DNA of 14,156 nucleotides from Candidatus Eiseniibacteriota bacterium. GTDB taxonomy: Bacteria; JAFGKV01. The DNA lies in NCBI GenBank assembly GCA_025453925.1, contig JALOPK010000050.1:1-14156 (forward strand), in the 5' to 3' direction. Both the position numbers and the translations under genes were made by a program. Below the pieces are notes generated by a model. It saw nothing but the letters and a program-made list of their open reading frames with translations. It had not been told where the DNA came from and ran no database searches. This document shows positions 2,200 to 10,053 of this stretch, piece by piece (within the stretch, counting starts at the first letter, position 1; each line of letters begins with the position of its first letter).

Positions 2200-3345
2200 A
2201 TGGTTCTCAACCACCCCCGACTTCTCCTCATGATACTTCTGGCCGTGCCGTGGGGCCTCTGCTGTACCAAGGATGCCACGCCGCCAGACACCGAGGAACG
2301 GCCGATCTATGTCACGATCTTCTCCCACAACGAGGAGCCCTGGGGCTCCTGGGTCGGCACGCGTGACCGGTATGCGGCCTACCGGGAGAACCTCGTTGAG
2401 AGGGTAGGGATCATCCGGGAATACGGCGCCGCGCTGGACTGGCAGTCCGATCTAACAGTCCTCCAGGCAATGATCCGGGAGGAAGACGACTCACTCTGTG
2501 CGCTCACCGAGGGCAAGAACATCCTCAGATACATGCGCGACCTCGGCGTGAGCATCGACCCCCACAGCCACCTGACACAGTGCAGCTATGCCGATATTGC
2601 CTATTGGATCGGACAGCTTGGAGTGGCATCCTCGGGCGTGATCGGAGGCCTCCCATGCTTGGAGTGCGGCACGACCTACCTGGGGTTTCTGGACCGGATG
2701 GATTGGAGGGCCGAGATCGACCTGGGTGCCGACGGCTTGATACGTGGACAGGTCGTTCCCGAAGCCGTGTGGAGGCCGACAATACTCTCCGTACCGGCGA
2801 TGCCTGGGCACTGGTTTGACGAACTCTCCTCGGGTGTCTGGAAGCCGGGGAACGGGGACGAATTCCTCACCCATCACCCCGAGGAGGAGATCGTCTATGT
2901 CGGACAGGGCTACCCGCACGATGTCACCAATCTGGGGCCGACCCAGGCCAGCGGGGCGGTCATCTACGGGGAGGACGCGGCTTACATCAAGGAGCTTGCG
3001 CAGAAGATCGAGCAGGGCGAAATCGCGGGCGACGGAATGCTCACGGCATCGATCCACATTCGCGACTGCGAAACGGTGCGCGACAATGCTTCCCTGGTGA
3101 ATGTGAACGGCGCACTGCGCGACATGCTTGAGATCCTGAAACCGATGGCGGAAAACGGCGACATCGTGTTCGTCACTTATCCGCGGGTGGTGCAGATCTG
3201 GCAGGACGAGTATGCGGCGCAGCCCTCCCGAGTGGACTTCAGCAGCTTCAGCATGTACGAGGCGGTGAAGGTACAGGCAATGGCGCACTGCGGGGCGGGA
3301 TTGGGAGGCGCGGACCGTGACCTGAACGCGCCGGGCAGCCGGTGA
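2200..3345 (+). CDS. Exported uncharacterised protein, polysaccharide-deacetylase-like (S-H-N-E / D-P-H-S-H motifs)
   Basis: This 381-residue protein begins with M-V-L-N-H-P-R and a hydrophobic stretch (residues 8-20) ending in Cys-Cys, so it is probably exported. The pre-Cys residues (W-G-L-C) are not a standard lipobox, leaving lipoprotein status open. The ATG at 2200 is chosen because GGAG sits six bases upstream; ATG 2188 is the alternative. Conserved-looking motifs are S-H-N-E-E-P (42-47), W-Q-S-D (81-84), T-E-G-K-N-I-L-R-Y (103-111), D-P-H-S-H (120-124), V-W-R-P-T-I-L (190-196) and a C-terminal V-F-V-T-Y-P-R-V-V-Q-I-W. Paired Asp/His motifs and this C-terminal strand recall (beta/alpha)-barrel metal-dependent carbohydrate deacetylases. 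I recall similar exported proteins of unknown function in FCB-group genomes. The stop overlaps a GTG of the next frame (GTGA at 3342-3345), so it is likely co-translated with the S51 peptidase. Catalysis is inferred, not shown. Confidence 0.6.
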   Translation: MVLNHPRLLLMILLAVPWGLCCTKDATPPDTEERPIYVTIFSHNEEPWGSWVGTRDRYAAYRENLVERVGIIREYGAALDWQSDLTVLQAMIREEDDSLCALTEGKNILRYMRDLGVSIDPHSHLTQCSYADIAYWIGQLGVASSGVIGGLPCLECGTTYLGFLDRMDWRAEIDLGADGLIRGQVVPEAVWRPTILSVPAMPGHWFDELSSGVWKPGNGDEFLTHHPEEEIVYVGQGYPHDVTNLGPTQASGAVIYGEDAAYIKELAQKIEQGEIAGDGMLTASIHIRDCETVRDNASLVNVNGALRDMLEILKPMAENGDIVFVTYPRVVQIWQDEYAAQPSRVDFSSFSMYEAVKVQAMAHCGAGLGGADRDLNAPGSR

Positions 3346-3407
3346 CGGCAGTGGCCGAGATGTTCCTTAGCGCCGGCAATCGATGGGGCTGCCGGTGCCG
3401 GGAACGC

Positions 3408-5084
3408 ATGCGCAGCATCGCGGCGTGTGCGGCATTGATGGTGAGTACGGTCCACGGCCAAGGATCGGTGATGCTGGTTGGAGGCGGTTCCGAGAGTTAC
3501 GGAGGATGGTCCGACGCGCCCTATGCCTGGTTCGTCGGGCAGGCAGACTCAGGGATCATCATCAATGTTGACGTGGCGGCCGCCAGCGACTGGTATCCAC
3601 CCTACTTCATCTCGTTTGGGGCGGACCCGACCAGCCACGCGCTGCAGATCCCGACCAGGAGCGCCGCCAACAACCAGGCCATCTACGATGATCTCGTGAG
3701 CGCCAGGGGTATCTTTCTGGAGGGCGGCGACCAGTGGAACTACGTTGCCACATGGAAGGGAACCCTTGTCGAAGACGCCCTCCATCAGGTATTCGCCGCG
3801 GGCGGCGCCATCGGCGGCACCAGTGCGGGATGCGCGGTGCTCGGTGAGGTCGTCTTCGACGCAGAGCATGGCACCGCATACCCACAGGAAGTCGCCTACG
3901 ACCCGTATGCGTGGTCCGTCACGTTCACGGACGATTTCCTCACGGTTCTTCCCGGCGTGATCACCGATTCCCATTTTCACACGCGGGGAAGACTGGGCAG
4001 GCTTGTGCCCTTCGTCGCCAGACGGATCCAGGACTTCGGCGACGCGGGGCTCGTGGGGATCGGCGTCGAAGAGAACACCGCCTTCTGCATTGACGCCAGT
4101 CGCGTCGGCATCGTCTACGGTGACTGTGTGGCGATCATCGCGCCAACGGAGCACTCCGTGGTCGCCTGTGAGCCGGCTACCCCCGTCACGTTCACGGCAA
4201 TCCATTTCGACCAGTTGCTGCAGGGCGACGAATACGACCTGCTGACCCTCCGACTGGTGAATTCCGGCGGCTTCCTCCTTCCGGTCACCGGGGCGGCGCC
4301 TCCCGACCCCATCTACAGCGACGTTATCCTCGACGGGTCGTCTGAACTCACCGGCAATCTGGGGGAGATTCGCATCACGGGAATGACGTACGATCCTGAC
4401 GCGTGGTGGTCAGGAGAGCTGGGAATCGTGCCCGGCCAAGGGGTCGTTCCTCGCTCGGTGATCATACCGAGGCTCTGGAGCGACATCGATCTCCTTGGCA
4501 ACCGCTGGGTCGGGGGATTGTACGGCATCGCCGTCAACCCATTCTTCACGGCGTGGTATCTCGACGACGGGTGCCGCACCCACATCATGGAGCCGGGCAT
4601 GGCGGTGGCGGGGAGTCTGACCTACGTCGTGAACACAAGGTCAGCCAGCCACTGTGGCGTCAATACCTCCAACATACCGGGGATACTCGGCGCGAGTCTT
4701 CACTTCCTTGGCCCCGGCGATTCCCTGGATTTGCTCTCTCCCCAGGCCGTCGACGACCTTGCCGTCAGCGAACTTGCACCGGGGTCTCTTGTGCTTTCCT
4801 GGTCGGCCCCAGGCGACAACATGACCGTCACAGGGTTTCTGGTGTACCGCCACACGCTGCCGTACTTCCTACCCACCCCGACCCTAGTAGTGGCCACGAC
4901 GACCGCCCAATTTTGGGTGGACGCCGGCGGCGTGGGGGATCCATCGGCCCATCCCTGTTACCGCGTCACTGCCGTGGATGCTTTCGGCAACGAGTCGGCA
5001 CCATCGAATCCTGTTGGCGCGATGTCGTTCCCCTGCACCACGCAGGGCCAAGCCCCGCGCCGCGACATGGCGACCACACGGTGA
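3408..5084 (+). CDS. Secreted cyanophycinase-like S51 serine peptidase with C-terminal Fn3-like domain
   Basis: The 558-residue product has a short signal peptide (residues 1-17, M-R-S-I-A-A-C-A-A-L then cleavage near H-G-Q). The peptidase S51 domain follows, roughly 20-300. Its hallmarks are V-M-L-V-G-G-G-S, the E-G-G-D-Q-W loop (Gln109), the nucleophile elbow G-G-T-S-A-G-C (Ser139), D-S-H-F-H-T-R-G-R-L-G-R-L (His189) and G-I-G-V-E-E-N-T-A-F (Glu222). Together these match the Ser-His-Glu triad of cyanophycinases. A linker/beta region (300-440) leads to a fibronectin-III-like module (about 446-541), L-V-L-S-W-S-A-P-G-D to Y-R-V-T-A-V-D, typical of extracellular proteins. Length is about twice that of a bare cyanophycinase. 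The ATG at 3408 places the signal peptide at the N-terminus. A GTG at 3342 overlapping the previous stop would give a 22-residue longer n-region. The substrate is unknown; S51 enzymes cleave after Asp, and cyanophycin itself is not implied. Confidence 0.85.
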   Translation: MRSIAACAALMVSTVHGQGSVMLVGGGSESYGGWSDAPYAWFVGQADSGIIINVDVAAASDWYPPYFISFGADPTSHALQIPTRSAANNQAIYDDLVSARGIFLEGGDQWNYVATWKGTLVEDALHQVFAAGGAIGGTSAGCAVLGEVVFDAEHGTAYPQEVAYDPYAWSVTFTDDFLTVLPGVITDSHFHTRGRLGRLVPFVARRIQDFGDAGLVGIGVEENTAFCIDASRVGIVYGDCVAIIAPTEHSVVACEPATPVTFTAIHFDQLLQGDEYDLLTLRLVNSGGFLLPVTGAAPPDPIYSDVILDGSSELTGNLGEIRITGMTYDPDAWWSGELGIVPGQGVVPRSVIIPRLWSDIDLLGNRWVGGLYGIAVNPFFTAWYLDDGCRTHIMEPGMAVAGSLTYVVNTRSASHCGVNTSNIPGILGASLHFLGPGDSLDLLSPQAVDDLAVSELAPGSLVLSWSAPGDNMTVTGFLVYRHTLPYFLPTPTLVVATTTAQFWVDAGGVGDPSAHPCYRVTAVDAFGNESAPSNPVGAMSFPCTTQGQAPRRDMATTR

Positions 5085-5239
5085 GTGGAGCGTGGTGTCG
5101 GAAGGAAGCTGCCATTCCGGCGAGCCGGTCAGTCGCCTCGCGATCGCGGCGCGTGAAACAAACCGCATGGTTGATCGGTCATCCAGGCCGGAGCGCATGA
5201 CGGGCGGTGCGGGGCCTAGTATTCGGCTCGCGCCTGCGC

Positions 5240-5267
5240 GCGGGATGCGCTCGCTCGCGCTTCCCGC
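5240..5267. other. Imperfect 10-bp GC hairpin, possible 3'-end structure of the upstream operon
   Basis: GCGGGA-T-GCGC at 5240-5250 pairs with GCGC-T-TCCCGC at 5257-5267, broken only by a T-T mismatch, around a six-base loop. It lies 155 bases after the S51 peptidase stop. There is no T-run on either side. It could protect or end the upstream transcript with Rho help, or be a dispersed palindromic repeat; no second copy was noticed in this window. Confidence 0.4.
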
Positions 5268-5370
5268 ACTGGCGCTGCGGGGGGGCGGTCGCTTTGGACG
5301 CCGCTCCCGTGGAAGAGGCGGCAAGCAACGTCGAGGACGGCGGTCTGGCACGACCCAGCCTGAGGAGCCA

Positions 5371-5386
5371 TCGACAGAAATGTCGA
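5371..5386. promoter_or_regulatory. Inverted repeat TCGACA-N4-TGTCGA, possible activator site
   Basis: TCGACA at 5371-5376 is the exact reverse complement of TGTCGA at 5381-5386, with spacer GAAA. Its centre is about 120 bases before the predicted sigma-54 start point, within the usual range for NtrC-family enhancer sites. It does not share sequence with the second inverted repeat at 5408-5426, so at most one may be the true site. Confidence 0.35.
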
Positions 5387-5407
5387 GGCGCACCCTGGGC
5401 GATCGGA

Positions 5408-5426
5408 AGATTCGCATGCCGAATCT
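5408..5426. promoter_or_regulatory. Inverted repeat AGATTCG-N5-CGAATCT, candidate enhancer site for the NtrC-class regulator
   Basis: AGATTCG (5408-5414) and CGAATCT (5420-5426) are perfect 7-bp inverted arms around CATGC. The centre lies about 84 bases upstream of the predicted sigma-54 transcription start (near 5501), a typical place for an upstream activating sequence. The dimeric Fis-type helix-turn-helix of the regulator encoded at 7923-9338 would recognise such a dyad. Binding is inferred from position and symmetry only. Confidence 0.5.
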
Positions 5427-5474
5427 CCATGTGTGCCATACTACTGCCCCCTTCCTGAGCGCGCTGCGAAAATC

Positions 5475-5490
5475 CGGCACGGGCATTGCA
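5475..5490 (+). promoter_or_regulatory. Sigma-54 (-24/-12) promoter of the ZraPSR-like operon
   Basis: CGGCACGGGCATTGCA matches the consensus TGGCACG-N4-TTGCA at every position except the first. The invariant GG (5476-5477) and GC (5488-5489) are separated by the required 10 bases. This predicts transcription from about 5501, some 70 bases before the ATG at 5569. The operon it drives encodes a sigma-54-dependent activator, which strongly supports the call. Confidence 0.8.
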
Positions 5491-5568
5491 TAGAAGGTGT
5501 GTGCACTCGACGCGCGGAGTTGCACGAAGTACGGCAGACGCGAAGTTGTAGTGAACAAGGAGGTCGCA

Positions 5569-6132
5569 ATGCGACGGACAACCGTTCTTCTTCTCGTACT
5601 GGGGATGGTGGCCTTGCTGGCCGCCACGTCAGATGCTCGAGGCCGTGGCGCGGGGCGCGGGCCGGCCATGTGTGGCATGGGACCGTGTGCGGCGATGGGA
5701 CCGATGTGGGCCGACTCCTCCGGCATGAGCAAGGAGCTGATGGAGAAGATCGCCAAGGAACGCCAGACGCTGATGATGGAGACCCTGAGCATTCGCACAC
5801 AGCTCTTCGAGAAGACCGAGCGTTTTCAGCTTATGATGGGTGATTCCAAGGCCAAGGACGATGACATCCTCAAGCTGCAGCAGGAAGTCCACAGCCTGAA
5901 GGGTCAGTTGGCTCAGAAGCATCTTCAACACATGCTCAGGATTCGTAGGGACCTCCCCGAGGGAACACGCCCTGGGTGCTGTTTCATGGGCGAGGGCTGT
6001 AACATGGGTCTGTGCGGGGGCATGGATCGCATGGGCCCCGGCGCCATGGCTGGGCGCCACGGAGGCTGCGGAATGGGCTGCATGCAGGGCAACGGCCGCG
6101 GGTGCTCGGCGGGAAGCGGACCCAGGCGGTAA
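5569..6132 (+). CDS. Periplasmic Cys/Met-rich metal-resistance chaperone, ZraP/Spy/CpxP-like
   Basis: The 187-residue product has a clear signal peptide (M-R-R-T-T then a Leu/Val/Ala core, cleavage near S-D-A-R at 21-24). The mature part has three regions. A short Gly/Met/Cys segment (25-50, Cys35 and Cys40) comes first. A charged, helical, coiled-coil-like core follows (about 53-128, K-E-L-M-E-K-I-A-K-E-R onward), with D-D-D-I-L-K-L-Q-Q-E-V-H-S-L-K. That core resembles the heavy-metal-resistance/Spy-CpxP fold. The tail (136-187) has seven Cys (137, 138, 144, 149, 167, 171, 179), several Met and His164. ZraP proteins are periplasmic, bind zinc and copper and have chaperone activity. The ATG at 5569 follows a perfect AAGGAGGT, and the sigma-54 start point (~5501) excludes the earlier in-frame start at 5497. 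It heads an operon with a sensor kinase and an NtrC-class regulator, as expected for a ZraPSR-type circuit. The bound metal is unknown. Confidence 0.78.
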   Translation: MRRTTVLLLVLGMVALLAATSDARGRGAGRGPAMCGMGPCAAMGPMWADSSGMSKELMEKIAKERQTLMMETLSIRTQLFEKTERFQLMMGDSKAKDDDILKLQQEVHSLKGQLAQKHLQHMLRIRRDLPEGTRPGCCFMGEGCNMGLCGGMDRMGPGAMAGRHGGCGMGCMQGNGRGCSAGSGPRR

Positions 6133-6140
6133 TCCTGTCG

Positions 6141-6177
6141 GCGGGAGCGGGCAGTGCGAAGCGCATGCCCGCCCCGC
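6141..6177 (+). promoter_or_regulatory. Strong intercistronic stem-loop between the chaperone and kinase genes
   Basis: GCGGG (6141-6145) pairs with CCCGC (6173-6177), and CGGGCA (6148-6153) with TGCCCG (6166-6171). TGCG (6155-6158) pairs with CGCA (6162-6165) across an AAG loop. Only a small internal loop and one bulged G interrupt about 15 GC-rich pairs. It starts nine bases after the chaperone stop and ends 15 bases before the kinase ATG. With no T-run it is more likely an RNA-stability or attenuation element than a full terminator. Confidence 0.5.
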
Positions 6178-6192
6178 GGCAACCGAAAGACG

Positions 6193-7926
6193 ATGACCAG
6201 ACACAACCTGACGTCGCGCCGACTCCGTCCGCGCGGCGCGGTTGTCTATCCCCTGGCGGGTCTGGTCACGCTCATCGTGGTCATCGTAGCCCTCAGCGCG
6301 GTGCTCTCGAGGCTGACCGAACGCCACGTCTATGATCTTCTGTCCGCTGAGGGGCGCCATCTGGCGGCGAGCATCAAGGCAAGCACCCTGCACGGGTTGA
6401 GCAGGATGCGGACCTCCCAGGATGAACTGGTGCGGCGGCTGAAGGTCCAGGCGGCGTGGCTCGACACCACGCTCACGGGAGATCCACGGCACGATGGGCC
6501 GCTCATCGTTGACCTGGGAGAGCGGGAAGATCTCGACGTGGTGGCAGTGTACGATCCGCTGCTCCAGCCGCTTATCTGGGCGGGGGGAGGCCCTCCGCGG
6601 GGGGCGGGGCCGGGCCCGCGGTGGGAGGCCGGGCCACCCCGCGGACGACCGCCGGCCATGTGCCCGGATGTATGCGGTTCACTGGTCGGCATCATGGCGA
6701 AGTTCTACGCCTCAGGAGATGCCGAACAAGCGTTCGACACCTGGGGGGGACATCATGGATGGAACCGGTCGGGAACACGGCCGGTGGCGTATGCCCGCAG
6801 GCGGGCGGGTGGGGGAGTGGTGTTCCTCAGGACCAGCGACGATCTCACGCGGCGCACCCTCGATGTCGACTCGTTCCAGGGCCTTCTCGATAACCTGGCG
6901 TTGGCCAGGAAAGTTCGCGGGATCGCGGTCACCGATGCCCGGAGTACGGTGCTGTTCTCCACCGATAGGGAGCAGATCGGTTCGCGCTGGCTCGATCCTC
7001 CACCCGAGGCGCAGCTGCTCATGGTGAGTGAGCCCTTTCCATTGGGCGGCGACACTCCCGGGACAATCCGCATCGCGCTCACCACCGATGACGCTCGTCA
7101 GGTGCTCGGCACGGCCGGGCGGAATCTATCCGTTCTGACCTTGGCCGCCTCGCTGGTTGGTGTCGCCGGGCTCCTTTCTGTCTTCAGCATCGAACGCCGG
7201 CACCACGCGCGCGCGGAGACCCTGCGGGAGGCGCTTCATCAGCACGACCGACTCGCCGACCTGGGGCGCATGACGGCCACCGTCGCGCACGAGATCCGCA
7301 ACCCGCTGAACGCGTTGGGGCTTACCGCCCAGAGACTGGCCCGGATGTCATCGGTCGATGGTTCCCGGGACGACGTCCAGGAGCTTTCCTCGCTGGTCAG
7401 ACAGGAAGTCGCGCGGCTCGACCGGACCGTGGATGCCTTCCTGAACCTTGCGAAACCTCCTCCGACTTCCCGCATCGCTTTCGATCTGAATGAACTCGCC
7501 CGCGCCGTTGCCGGCCTCTACGCGGCCGAAGCCGAACAGAGCGGGGTCAGGTTGCTTCATGAGCCCTCGCCCGAGCCCCTCGAGATGGACGGTGATCCCG
7601 ATCGACTCCACCAGGCCCTTTCGAACCTGGTGCGCAACGCCATCGAATCGTCGCCGCGGGCCGGATCGGTCAGAACAACGGCGAGGAAGGAAGGGACTAT
7701 CGCCGTACTGCGGGTGGAGGACACGGGTCAGGGTTTCTCGGTTGATGCCCTCGAACACGCCACTGCCGCGTTCTTCACGACAAAGACGCAAGGCATGGGG
7801 CTCGGCCTCACGCTGGCCGATCGCGTGGCAAAGGACCACGGCGGGGCATTGGCTATGGGGAACACGGAGCGGGGCGGCGCCTGGGTGGAACTGCGTATCC
7901 CGTTGCGAGGGGAGCCTCACCGGTGA
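6193..7926 (+). CDS. Membrane sensor histidine kinase, ZraS/NtrB-like
   Basis: The 577-residue kinase has TM1 (about 16-38), a periplasmic sensor of about 270 residues and TM2 (about 312-331). The cytoplasmic transmitter follows. H-box A-H-E-I-R-N-P-L-N carries phospho-acceptor His366; the N-box is N-L-V-R-N-A-I-E (Asn482). The G1 box is D-T-G-Q-G-F (510-515), the F-box F-F-T-T-K, and the G2 box G-M-G-L-G-L (534-539). No HAMP domain is evident between TM2 and the H-box. The sensor carries a Gly/Pro/Arg-rich insert (131-155) followed by C-P-D-V-C (157-161) and G-G-H-H-G-W (185-190), possible metal ligands. The ATG at 6193 is preferred because the earlier GTG at 6154 sits inside a stable stem-loop; its ribosome site (AAAGA) is weak, so the start is uncertain. 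The stop overlaps the regulator start by four bases. It probably phosphorylates that regulator in response to a periplasmic metal or envelope signal. Confidence 0.88.
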   Translation: MTRHNLTSRRLRPRGAVVYPLAGLVTLIVVIVALSAVLSRLTERHVYDLLSAEGRHLAASIKASTLHGLSRMRTSQDELVRRLKVQAAWLDTTLTGDPRHDGPLIVDLGEREDLDVVAVYDPLLQPLIWAGGGPPRGAGPGPRWEAGPPRGRPPAMCPDVCGSLVGIMAKFYASGDAEQAFDTWGGHHGWNRSGTRPVAYARRRAGGGVVFLRTSDDLTRRTLDVDSFQGLLDNLALARKVRGIAVTDARSTVLFSTDREQIGSRWLDPPPEAQLLMVSEPFPLGGDTPGTIRIALTTDDARQVLGTAGRNLSVLTLAASLVGVAGLLSVFSIERRHHARAETLREALHQHDRLADLGRMTATVAHEIRNPLNALGLTAQRLARMSSVDGSRDDVQELSSLVRQEVARLDRTVDAFLNLAKPPPTSRIAFDLNELARAVAGLYAAEAEQSGVRLLHEPSPEPLEMDGDPDRLHQALSNLVRNAIESSPRAGSVRTTARKEGTIAVLRVEDTGQGFSVDALEHATAAFFTTKTQGMGLGLTLADRVAKDHGGALAMGNTERGGAWVELRIPLRGEPHR

Positions 7927-9338
7927 CCGCGGCGAAGACGCGCCTTGCCGTGGTGGAGGATGAGGCGGTCCAGCGTCGCCTGATGACTGAGGCGCTGCGT
8001 GAGGCGGGGCACGATGTGACGGGGTTCGAGTCGGCCGAGGCTCTGTTGGCGGTGGGGGAGAGCGCGGCATTCGACGTGGTGCTCACCGACCTGCGCCTCC
8101 CGGGCATGAGCGGAGTCGAGCTCCTCCGGCGACTCCGGGAGATCGATCCCGAGCTGCAGGCCCTCGTGATCACGGCGTACGCGACCATCGAGACTGCCGT
8201 CGAAGCCATCAAGGCCGGCGCCTACGGCTACCTGAGGAAGCCCATCGATCTCGAGGAATTGCTGGTGCTGGTGCGCCGGGCGGGCGGGAACAGACGCCTG
8301 CTCGCGGAGAACCGCGTTCTCAAGGAGCAGTTGAAGGAGCGGTACTCCCTGAAAGGGGTGATCGGCAGCTCATCGCGCATGCAGGAGGTTCTCAGTCTCG
8401 TCTATCGGGCCGCCCCCAGCGTCGCTACCGTGCTGATCACCGGCGAGAGCGGCACCGGCAAGGAGTTGATCGCCCGGGCGCTGCACCTTCAGAGCCCGCG
8501 GGCCCCCGGGCCATTCGTCACGGTGAATTGCGCCGCTCTGCCTGAGACGCTCCTGGAGGCCGAGCTGTTTGGCCACGAAAAGGGCGCCTTCACCGGAGCG
8601 TCCTCGGCGCGGATCGGGCGGTTCGAGGCCGCGGATGGCGGTACGCTCTTTCTGGATGAAGTGGGCGAGATCCCGGTATCGATCCAGGTCAAGCTGCTGA
8701 GGTTCCTCCAGGAGCGTACCGTCGAGCGCCTTGGCAGCAACACGCTCCTGCGCCTGGATGCCCGGCTGGTCGCCGCGACCAATCGGGATCTGGGTCTTCT
8801 CATGCGCGCGGGCCTATTCCGGGAAGACCTCTACTGGAGGCTCAATGTGGTGACCATCGCGCTTCCACCCCTTCGCGAGCGCAGGGAAGACCTGTCACCT
8901 CTGGTCGCGCACTTCCTCTCGCGGCACGCGGAGGCGAACGGGAAGAGCATCGGAGGGTTCAGCCGCGAGTTCTTCACTGCCCTGCACCAGTATGACTTCC
9001 CCGGAAACGTGCGGGAATTGGAGAACATCGTCGAGCACGCGGTGGTGATGGCCCGGGGCGGAATCCTGACCGTGGAAGACCTCCCGCCCTACGTCCGTCC
9101 GGTCGCGACCCCGGGGATTGAGTCAGAGGGTCGCCTGCGTGATGTGCTGGAGTCCGTGGAGCGGGGCATGATCGAACGGGCGCTGGCGGACACCGGATCA
9201 GTGCAGACCAAGGCCGCCCAACGACTAGGGATCAGCGAACGGATGCTGCGCTACAAGATCACGAAATATGGTCTGAAGGAACTCCGCCCCGCGGCGCCTA
9301 CCGGGGAGGAATCCAGCCGGGCACCGCTGCCGTCATGA
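7923..9338 (+). CDS. NtrC-class sigma-54-dependent response regulator, ZraR-like
   Basis: The 471-residue protein has three domains. The receiver (1-120) has acidic Glu12/Asp13, phospho-acceptor Asp56 in V-L-T-D-L-R-L-P, Thr84 and Lys106. The AAA+ domain (about 145-380) has Walker A G-E-S-G-T-G-K (174-180), the sigma-54-contacting loop G-A-F-T-G-A (221-226), Walker B T-L-F-L-D-E (241-246), A-T-N-R-D-L and G-N-V-R-E-L-E-N. A Fis-type helix-turn-helix (about 415-452) has K-A-A-Q-R-L-G-I-S-E-R-M-L-R-Y-K. All parts needed for ATP-driven opening of sigma-54 promoters are intact. The GTG start at 7923 overlaps the kinase stop (GTGA) and is preceded by GAGGGGAG eight bases upstream. Its likely target is the sigma-54 promoter at 5475-5490 ahead of its own operon. 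The 3' end overlaps the oppositely oriented glycosylase gene by 41 bases. Among regulators, ZraR/AtoC/NtrC-like subtype names are less certain than the class. Confidence 0.95.
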   Translation: MTAAKTRLAVVEDEAVQRRLMTEALREAGHDVTGFESAEALLAVGESAAFDVVLTDLRLPGMSGVELLRRLREIDPELQALVITAYATIETAVEAIKAGAYGYLRKPIDLEELLVLVRRAGGNRRLLAENRVLKEQLKERYSLKGVIGSSSRMQEVLSLVYRAAPSVATVLITGESGTGKELIARALHLQSPRAPGPFVTVNCAALPETLLEAELFGHEKGAFTGASSARIGRFEAADGGTLFLDEVGEIPVSIQVKLLRFLQERTVERLGSNTLLRLDARLVAATNRDLGLLMRAGLFREDLYWRLNVVTIALPPLRERREDLSPLVAHFLSRHAEANGKSIGGFSREFFTALHQYDFPGNVRELENIVEHAVVMARGGILTVEDLPPYVRPVATPGIESEGRLRDVLESVERGMIERALADTGSVQTKAAQRLGISERMLRYKITKYGLKELRPAAPTGEESSRAPLPS

Positions 9339-10053
9339 GCCTGCTCCAGCCCCTGTTCGCCGCGGGATTGGCCGGACTCGGATGCGGCACGGCGGTAACA
9401 GTGCACCCGGTTCCGGCCAGGGCCTCCTGCGCTCGGACGAAGGCGAAGACGCCAAGGGCAATGACCTGCCGGGCCTCCACGAGGAGAGCGGTGCGTCTGA
9501 ACGCATTGTCGCAAATGGCGAACAACTCCACCTGATCAGCCCTCGCAAGCCGGTCAGGGGTGAGGTTGTGGCCGGCGGCGTCGAAGAAGATCAGCGGGCA
9601 GTAGTTGGTGACGAAGCACCGCGCAAAGAACCGCTCAGGCGTGCCGAACGCCGCCCGCGCCCACCCCCAGACCCTCGCACCGCTCACTTCGCTCCGGGTG
9701 CATGCGAACCCCATGATGGGCCGCGACGGGATCTCGCCGACCGGATGCCCCACCGGCTCATCGATGTCGAGCCAGCTCCGAACGTGGGCGACCTCACCGA
9801 AGGGGACGCCGGTCTGCGCCATGCCCCATGGCCCGGGGTTCATGCCCAGAATGAGTAGTTCCTTGGGTGGCGCGCCATACCGGGTCACGTAGGCACGGAA
9901 GCCGGCACGGGCATACTCGAGCGGATTGTAGACGCAGGCAACGGGCCGGCGGAATCTGAGGTCCCCGACCCTGGCGCTCAGATCATCCGCGATCGCCAGG
10001 AGCCCGTTGTCCTTCGCCCCGTCTCCGGTGCAAGGGCCCGCGTTGTTCGTCAA
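9298..10053 (-). CDS. SMUG1-type (family 3) uracil-DNA glycosylase
   Basis: The 251-residue cytoplasmic repair enzyme removes uracil and oxidised pyrimidines from DNA. Family 3 signatures run along its length: V-Y-N-P-L-E-Y-A-R (41-49), L-G-M-N-P-G-P-W-G-M-A-Q-T-G-V-P-F-G (69-86) with the catalytic-site Asn72, R-P-I-M-G-F-A-C-T-R-S-E-V-S-G (111-125), F-V-T-N-Y-C-P-L and A-V-P-H-P-S-P (221-227) with His224. Length suits the family (about 240-270). No ATG occurs before residue 71. The start is therefore taken as the TTG at 10053, which overlaps the stop of the upstream Wzz-like gene (TTGA), implying translational coupling; GGAGG lies 14 bases upstream of it. Pairing a DNA-repair gene with a polysaccharide chain-length gene is unusual. 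Its 3' end runs 41 bases into the converging response-regulator gene. Confidence 0.92.
   Translation of the reverse strand: MTNNAGPCTGDGAKDNGLLAIADDLSARVGDLRFRRPVACVYNPLEYARAGFRAYVTRYGAPPKELLILGMNPGPWGMAQTGVPFGEVAHVRSWLDIDEPVGHPVGEIPSRPIMGFACTRSEVSGARVWGWARAAFGTPERFFARCFVTNYCPLIFFDAAGHNLTPDRLARADQVELFAICDNAFRRTALLVEARQVIALGVFAFVRAQEALAGTGCTVTAVPHPSPANPAANRGWSRLMTAAVPGWIPPR

Follow-up and report, generated by a model that had tools for sequence, protein, structure and literature searches.

The window, by which we mean the whole stretch of 14,156 nucleotides from Candidatus Eiseniibacteriota that we analysed, very probably carries a ZraPSR-type module for envelope or metal stress, with three genes in line behind one sigma-54 promoter and activating itself. 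The evidence for the promoter box is its conservation in two relatives, not the motif alone, and upstream of it lies an enhancer palindrome that an earlier note on this DNA had overlooked and that we found in this analysis. The features of the locus are the following:

5371..5386, + strand: enhancer (UAS) palindrome TCGACA-GAAA-TGTCGA, kept in three genomes
5475..5490, + strand: sigma-54 -24/-12 promoter box CGGCACGGGCATTGCA, conserved as TGGCACGGTCATTGCA in G001 and TGGCACGGAAATTGAT in G002
5501..5501, + strand: predicted transcription start, from the position of the -12 GC
5557..5563, + strand: ribosome-binding site AAGGAGG of the chaperone gene, strong, from the sequence
5569..6132, + strand: ZraP-like secreted helical-hairpin protein with a Cys/Met/Gly-rich tail (Metal_resist match, fold search, orthologs)
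6136..6181, + strand: GC-rich intercistronic hairpin without U-tract (z -3.4; counterparts in G001 and G002)
6193..7926, + strand: membrane sensor histidine kinase, ZraS-like, His at residue 366 (domains, ZraS comparison)
7923..9338, + strand: NtrC-class response regulator, Asp56, GAFTGA 221-226, Fis-type HTH (domains, orthologs)

Three genes in line

The genes follow each other on the + strand in the order chaperone, kinase, regulator. The chaperone gene (187 aa) starts with the ATG at 5569 and ends with a stop codon at 6130-6132, the kinase gene (577 aa, HisKA and HATPase domains) starts with the ATG at 6193, after a gap of only 60 bp without promoter-like site, and the regulator gene (471 aa) starts with a GTG at 7923 and shares 4 nt with the end of the kinase gene. 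Because its 3' neighbour, a uracil-DNA-glycosylase-like gene at 9298-10053, is convergent, the regulator gene is the last of the operon. No sigma-70-type promoter was found in 5000-9700. The earlier note had described a regulator with an intact GAFTGA loop and its partner kinase in the same operon, as we also find, and had placed the three genes behind one promoter, which is well supported by conservation and by the shared enhancer palindrome. Elsewhere in the window, a large peptidase-S51 (cyanophycinase-like) protein is encoded 5' of the operon (3342-5084), where G001 has other genes, and the contig start has the C-terminal part of an AcrB-type RND pump (99-956), followed by an OsmC peroxiredoxin gene (1134-1547).

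The chaperone has, by eye, an N-terminal signal peptide. Its match to Pfam Metal_resist (E 2.5e-5, 24.9 bits) is under the gathering score of 29.2 bits, which the G001 ortholog exceeds (35.4 bits); the orthologs in the two relatives are 52% and 38% identical to it. A comparison of folds was needed, because a sequence profile searched against the PDB reached ZraP (3LAY) only at E 4. The model of the chaperone shows two helices (55-91 and 97-128) in the helical hairpin of the ZraP/CnrX/CpxP fold, with low confidence outside this hairpin (residues 55-128). Chains of Salmonella ZraP (3LAY) take the first six places in a fold search of the PDB, with a best E of 0.015 and target TM of 0.85-0.91; CnrX, NccX, and CpxP come next. 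A short N-terminal ZraP peptide used as plasmid query gave no match. Cys and Met are abundant in the tails encoded by the window and G001, and the G002 tail has more His, so the metal may differ between these genomes. We infer the metal response of the module from the family only.

The kinase matches E. coli ZraS at 29% over 384 aa, membrane-proximal sensor stretch included, and ZraS is its best NCBIfam model, with 173 bits for a cut-off of 479, which is not reached. A structure prediction for the kinase was discarded (mean pLDDT of 51). The regulator combines receiver, Sigma54_activat, and HTH_8 domains, as NtrC-class bEBPs do, and its phospho-acceptor Asp56 was assigned by position. It is 70% and 65% identical to its orthologs in G001 and G002, and almost equally close to ZraR (45%) and AtoC (44%); the NCBIfam models of these two give 408 bits (ZraR, cut-off 760) and 482 bits (AtoC, cut-off 714), neither reaching its cut-off. 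We would call the regulator ZraR-like by context, not by descent.

The module in relatives and in other phyla

Our collection comprises 97,973 species genomes, and the phylum has only three of them: the window's own genome (G000), one of the same genus (G001), and one of the same family (G002). The lineage is therefore not proteobacterial, as the earlier note had suspected. The triplet with its box, which that note proposed to seek in related genomes, is present in both other genomes of the phylum, and the order chaperone-kinase-regulator is the same in G001 and, as far as its contig extends, in G002. Further Metal_resist proteins are encoded in G001 (C91, L228) and G002 (C103, L313), without neighbouring GAFTGA regulator.

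Outside this family, the chaperone-kinase-regulator order was found in none of 100 Metal_resist loci from diverse phyla, in a survey that included one or two genomes per family and used a Pfam model that misses diverged members. Three loci of family f70 (L222, L303, and L291, in G341, G212, and G071) have the order kinase-regulator-chaperone. Their chaperone genes are preceded by a conserved sigma-54 box (TGGCACCTCGGTTGCT twice, TGGCATGACCGTTGCT once), found only between regulator and chaperone gene, and by a conserved palindrome-like element, GTGCGAAGAAYCTGCGCA, unlike the palindrome of the window. We also scanned 80 related regulator loci using a four-sequence ZraP profile and a filter on tail composition. 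There was one clear match, L055 (Desulfobacterales), where a ZraP-like gene is divergent from a kinase-regulator pair (4438-9000), with no good -24/-12 box between the two. The same logic thus has at least three arrangements: divergent, P-S-R, and S-R-P (P for the chaperone, S for the kinase, R for the regulator).

A hairpin after the chaperone gene

A hairpin follows the stop codon of the chaperone gene in all three genomes of the phylum, with a different sequence in each and z of -3.4 in the window, -3.6 in G001, and -5.9 in G002. The one in the window is the most stable of 195 post-stop stretches from the three genomes, and those of G001 and G002 rank within about the top 2%. None of the three has a U-tract, and no terminator was called there in the window. 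The ribosome site is strong for the chaperone gene and almost absent for the kinase gene. Intercistronic hairpins in other operons can stabilise the upstream message and limit downstream expression; by analogy, the likeliest role of this hairpin would be the same, leaving the chaperone in excess. Kinase and regulator are probably made at a lower level than the chaperone, because of the conserved hairpin and the weak translation signals. The strong joint autoregulation of all three proteins expected by the earlier note thus holds in part: self-activation is supported by conservation and by the shared palindrome, but expression of kinase and regulator as strong as that of the chaperone is unlikely. 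In G001, another hairpin (-21 kcal/mol in 45 nt) lies 3' of the regulator stop (locus L136, reverse strand, after 5991) and is possibly the end of the operon.

One might also think that the sigma-54 promoter serves the chaperone only, its transcript being terminated or attenuated by the hairpin, and that an unseen promoter, weak and constitutive, provides for kinase and regulator. This would fit the strong hairpin right after the chaperone stop in the three genomes, the f70 genomes from another phylum, where the box precedes the chaperone gene only, and the distance between chaperone and kinase genes in G002, where an extra promoter is possible because of the gap of about 360-460 bp. Yet, the hairpins lack U-tracts and were not called terminators, the short gap of the window is devoid of promoter-like sites, and in both E. 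coli and Desulfovibrio the kinase-regulator operon is among the targets of its own regulator (PMC8249747, PMC4641369). We therefore regard this arrangement as unlikely.

Promoter and enhancer

The box CGGCACGGGCATTGCA has one mismatch to TGGCACGNNNNTTGCW, with GG at 5476-5477 and GC at 5488-5489 separated by N10, and it sits 94 bp 5' of the chaperone ATG; a motif scan thus agrees with the near-consensus box and exact GG-N10-GC spacing read in the earlier note. With up to 3 mismatches allowed, the window has 17 matches, this box being the best, and shuffles have ~21; 16-mers with 1 mismatch are as frequent in the window's own genome as those of the reversed control (80 vs 80). Because of this equality genome-wide, the motif alone is not evidence. 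The earlier note had staked its promoter on the GG and GC elements of orthologous upstream regions, and these are perfect in G001, whose box TGGCACGGTCATTGCA has exactly the same distance of 94 bp to the ATG as that of the window; in G002 the distance is 84 bp and the box reads TGGCACGGAAATTGAT, with GC changed to GA at -12 (TTGAT, not TTGCA). Apart from the boxes, the DNA 5' of the operon is ~31% identical between window and G001 (ungapped), near chance. An imperfect inverted repeat, GTGCACTC...GAGTTGCAC, begins at the predicted transcript start in the window (5501-5525), and G001 has a cleaner one at the matching position (GTGCAACC...GGTTGCGC); these are possibly 5'-terminal mRNA stems.

The palindrome TCGACA-N4-TGTCGA precedes the box by 104, 105, and 116 bp across the three genomes, with one change in G001, and its centre in the window is ~122 bp 5' of the predicted transcription start. 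A further, weaker copy in G002 is 80 bp 5' of the box. Separately, a second enhancer-like palindrome of G002, TGACAATAATGTCGA, is found 176 bp upstream of the box (locus L137, 79-95). The exact palindrome occurs only twice in the window's own genome, and the pair of palindrome and box, separated by N80..110, occurs once in each of the three genomes, every time at this operon (reversed control: 0, 0, and 1); no other operon with such a pair was found in the three genomes. Such a unique pair would be expected of a single-target activator that has an enhancer to itself, and adjacency and co-conservation point to the encoded regulator as the probable binder of the palindrome.

The window's own genome has ten strong Sigma54_activat genes (about ten bEBPs), and a different one of these might drive the promoter while the encoded regulator acts elsewhere. 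We find this improbable, because the pair of palindrome and box is at this operon only and neighbouring single-target regulation has been reported for ZraR (PMC8249747). Even less credible is a chance match of the box, with a housekeeping promoter running the operon: the motif is indeed as common as its control genome-wide, but its position and sequence are kept in two relatives with a matching palindrome, in a pair that is unique in each genome. RpoN was not found in the window's own genome, a MAG that is 82% complete, and is present in both relatives; we take its absence as an assembly gap.

Discussion

Our results suggest a circuit of self-activation from one sigma-54 promoter. The kinase would sense periplasmic stress and, judging from the domains, phosphorylate the regulator, which would bind the palindrome at 5371-5386 and drive RNA polymerase-sigma54 at 5475-5490. 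The step from palindrome to box is supported, because the pair is conserved and unique. The chaperone would then be made, and read-through past the hairpin would give more kinase and regulator in a positive feedback, the two being probably held below the chaperone by the hairpin and the weak downstream translation signals. Finally, by analogy with what has been reported on ZraP of E. coli and Salmonella, the chaperone probably uses its tail to bind metal and damps the activity of the kinase. We put forward more tentatively, as plausible rather than probable, the complete picture of a one-promoter ZraPSR feedback circuit in which the hairpin sets the ratio of effector to sensor and regulator, with an enhancer code of its own and in a non-proteobacterial phylum. 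If true, one enhancer would give strong effector output with only a small gain of positive feedback.

These results indicate that a sigma-54-controlled ZraP-type stress module exists beyond Proteobacteria, in a little-sampled phylum. Gene order, enhancer, and promoter number seem to have been re-wired between lineages, and the logic kept: the regulator activates the chaperone and probably itself. The palindrome makes DNA binding testable, and the hairpin does the same for the way such circuits limit their own positive feedback.

The earlier note overstated the novelty of a self-contained, autoregulated sigma-54 circuit, since E. coli ZraPSR is already one (PMC8249747, PMC4987338). ZraR is a single-target, self-controlling regulator (PMC8249747). 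It has one binding site and controls zraP as well as zraSR (PMC8249747, PMC4987338), through two sigma-54 promoters (PMC4987338). In Desulfovibrio vulgaris, DVU3381 controls DVU3382-DVU3381 and DVU3384 in envelope stress (PMC4641369). Self-containment is thus not new, because both regulators do likewise; the differences from E. coli ZraSR are the in-line order, the enhancer code, and the hairpin. Like ZraPSR of E. coli and Salmonella, the operon encodes a periplasmic protein of the ZraP fold with a tail rich in metal ligands, a membrane kinase, and an NtrC-class GAFTGA regulator, with sigma-54 control, autoregulation, and a single target site. It differs from the E. coli system by the longer periplasmic part of its kinase, by a regulator that is not clearly ZraR over AtoC, by the palindrome TCGACA-N4-TGTCGA and the intercistronic hairpin, and by its single in-line operon: zraP is divergent from zraSR in MG1655, as the earlier note had stated, whereas the genes are in line in the window, G001, and G002. 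The D. vulgaris regulator similarly acts via sigma-54 on the operon that encodes it with its kinase and on a gene nearby, but these are two transcription units. Vibrio cholerae 'Zra2' was rejected as a comparison, because VC_1314 is not ZraP-like in sequence (PMC10848872).

In CpxP-CpxRA, as here, a periplasmic helical hairpin protein accompanies an envelope-stress two-component system. The Cpx regulator is of the OmpR class and its promoters are of sigma-70 type, both unlike the operon of the window. The f70 loci share with it a kinase, a GAFTGA regulator, and a Metal_resist protein in line, with a box before the chaperone gene, but they have the order S-R-P, the box before P only, and another palindrome-like element.
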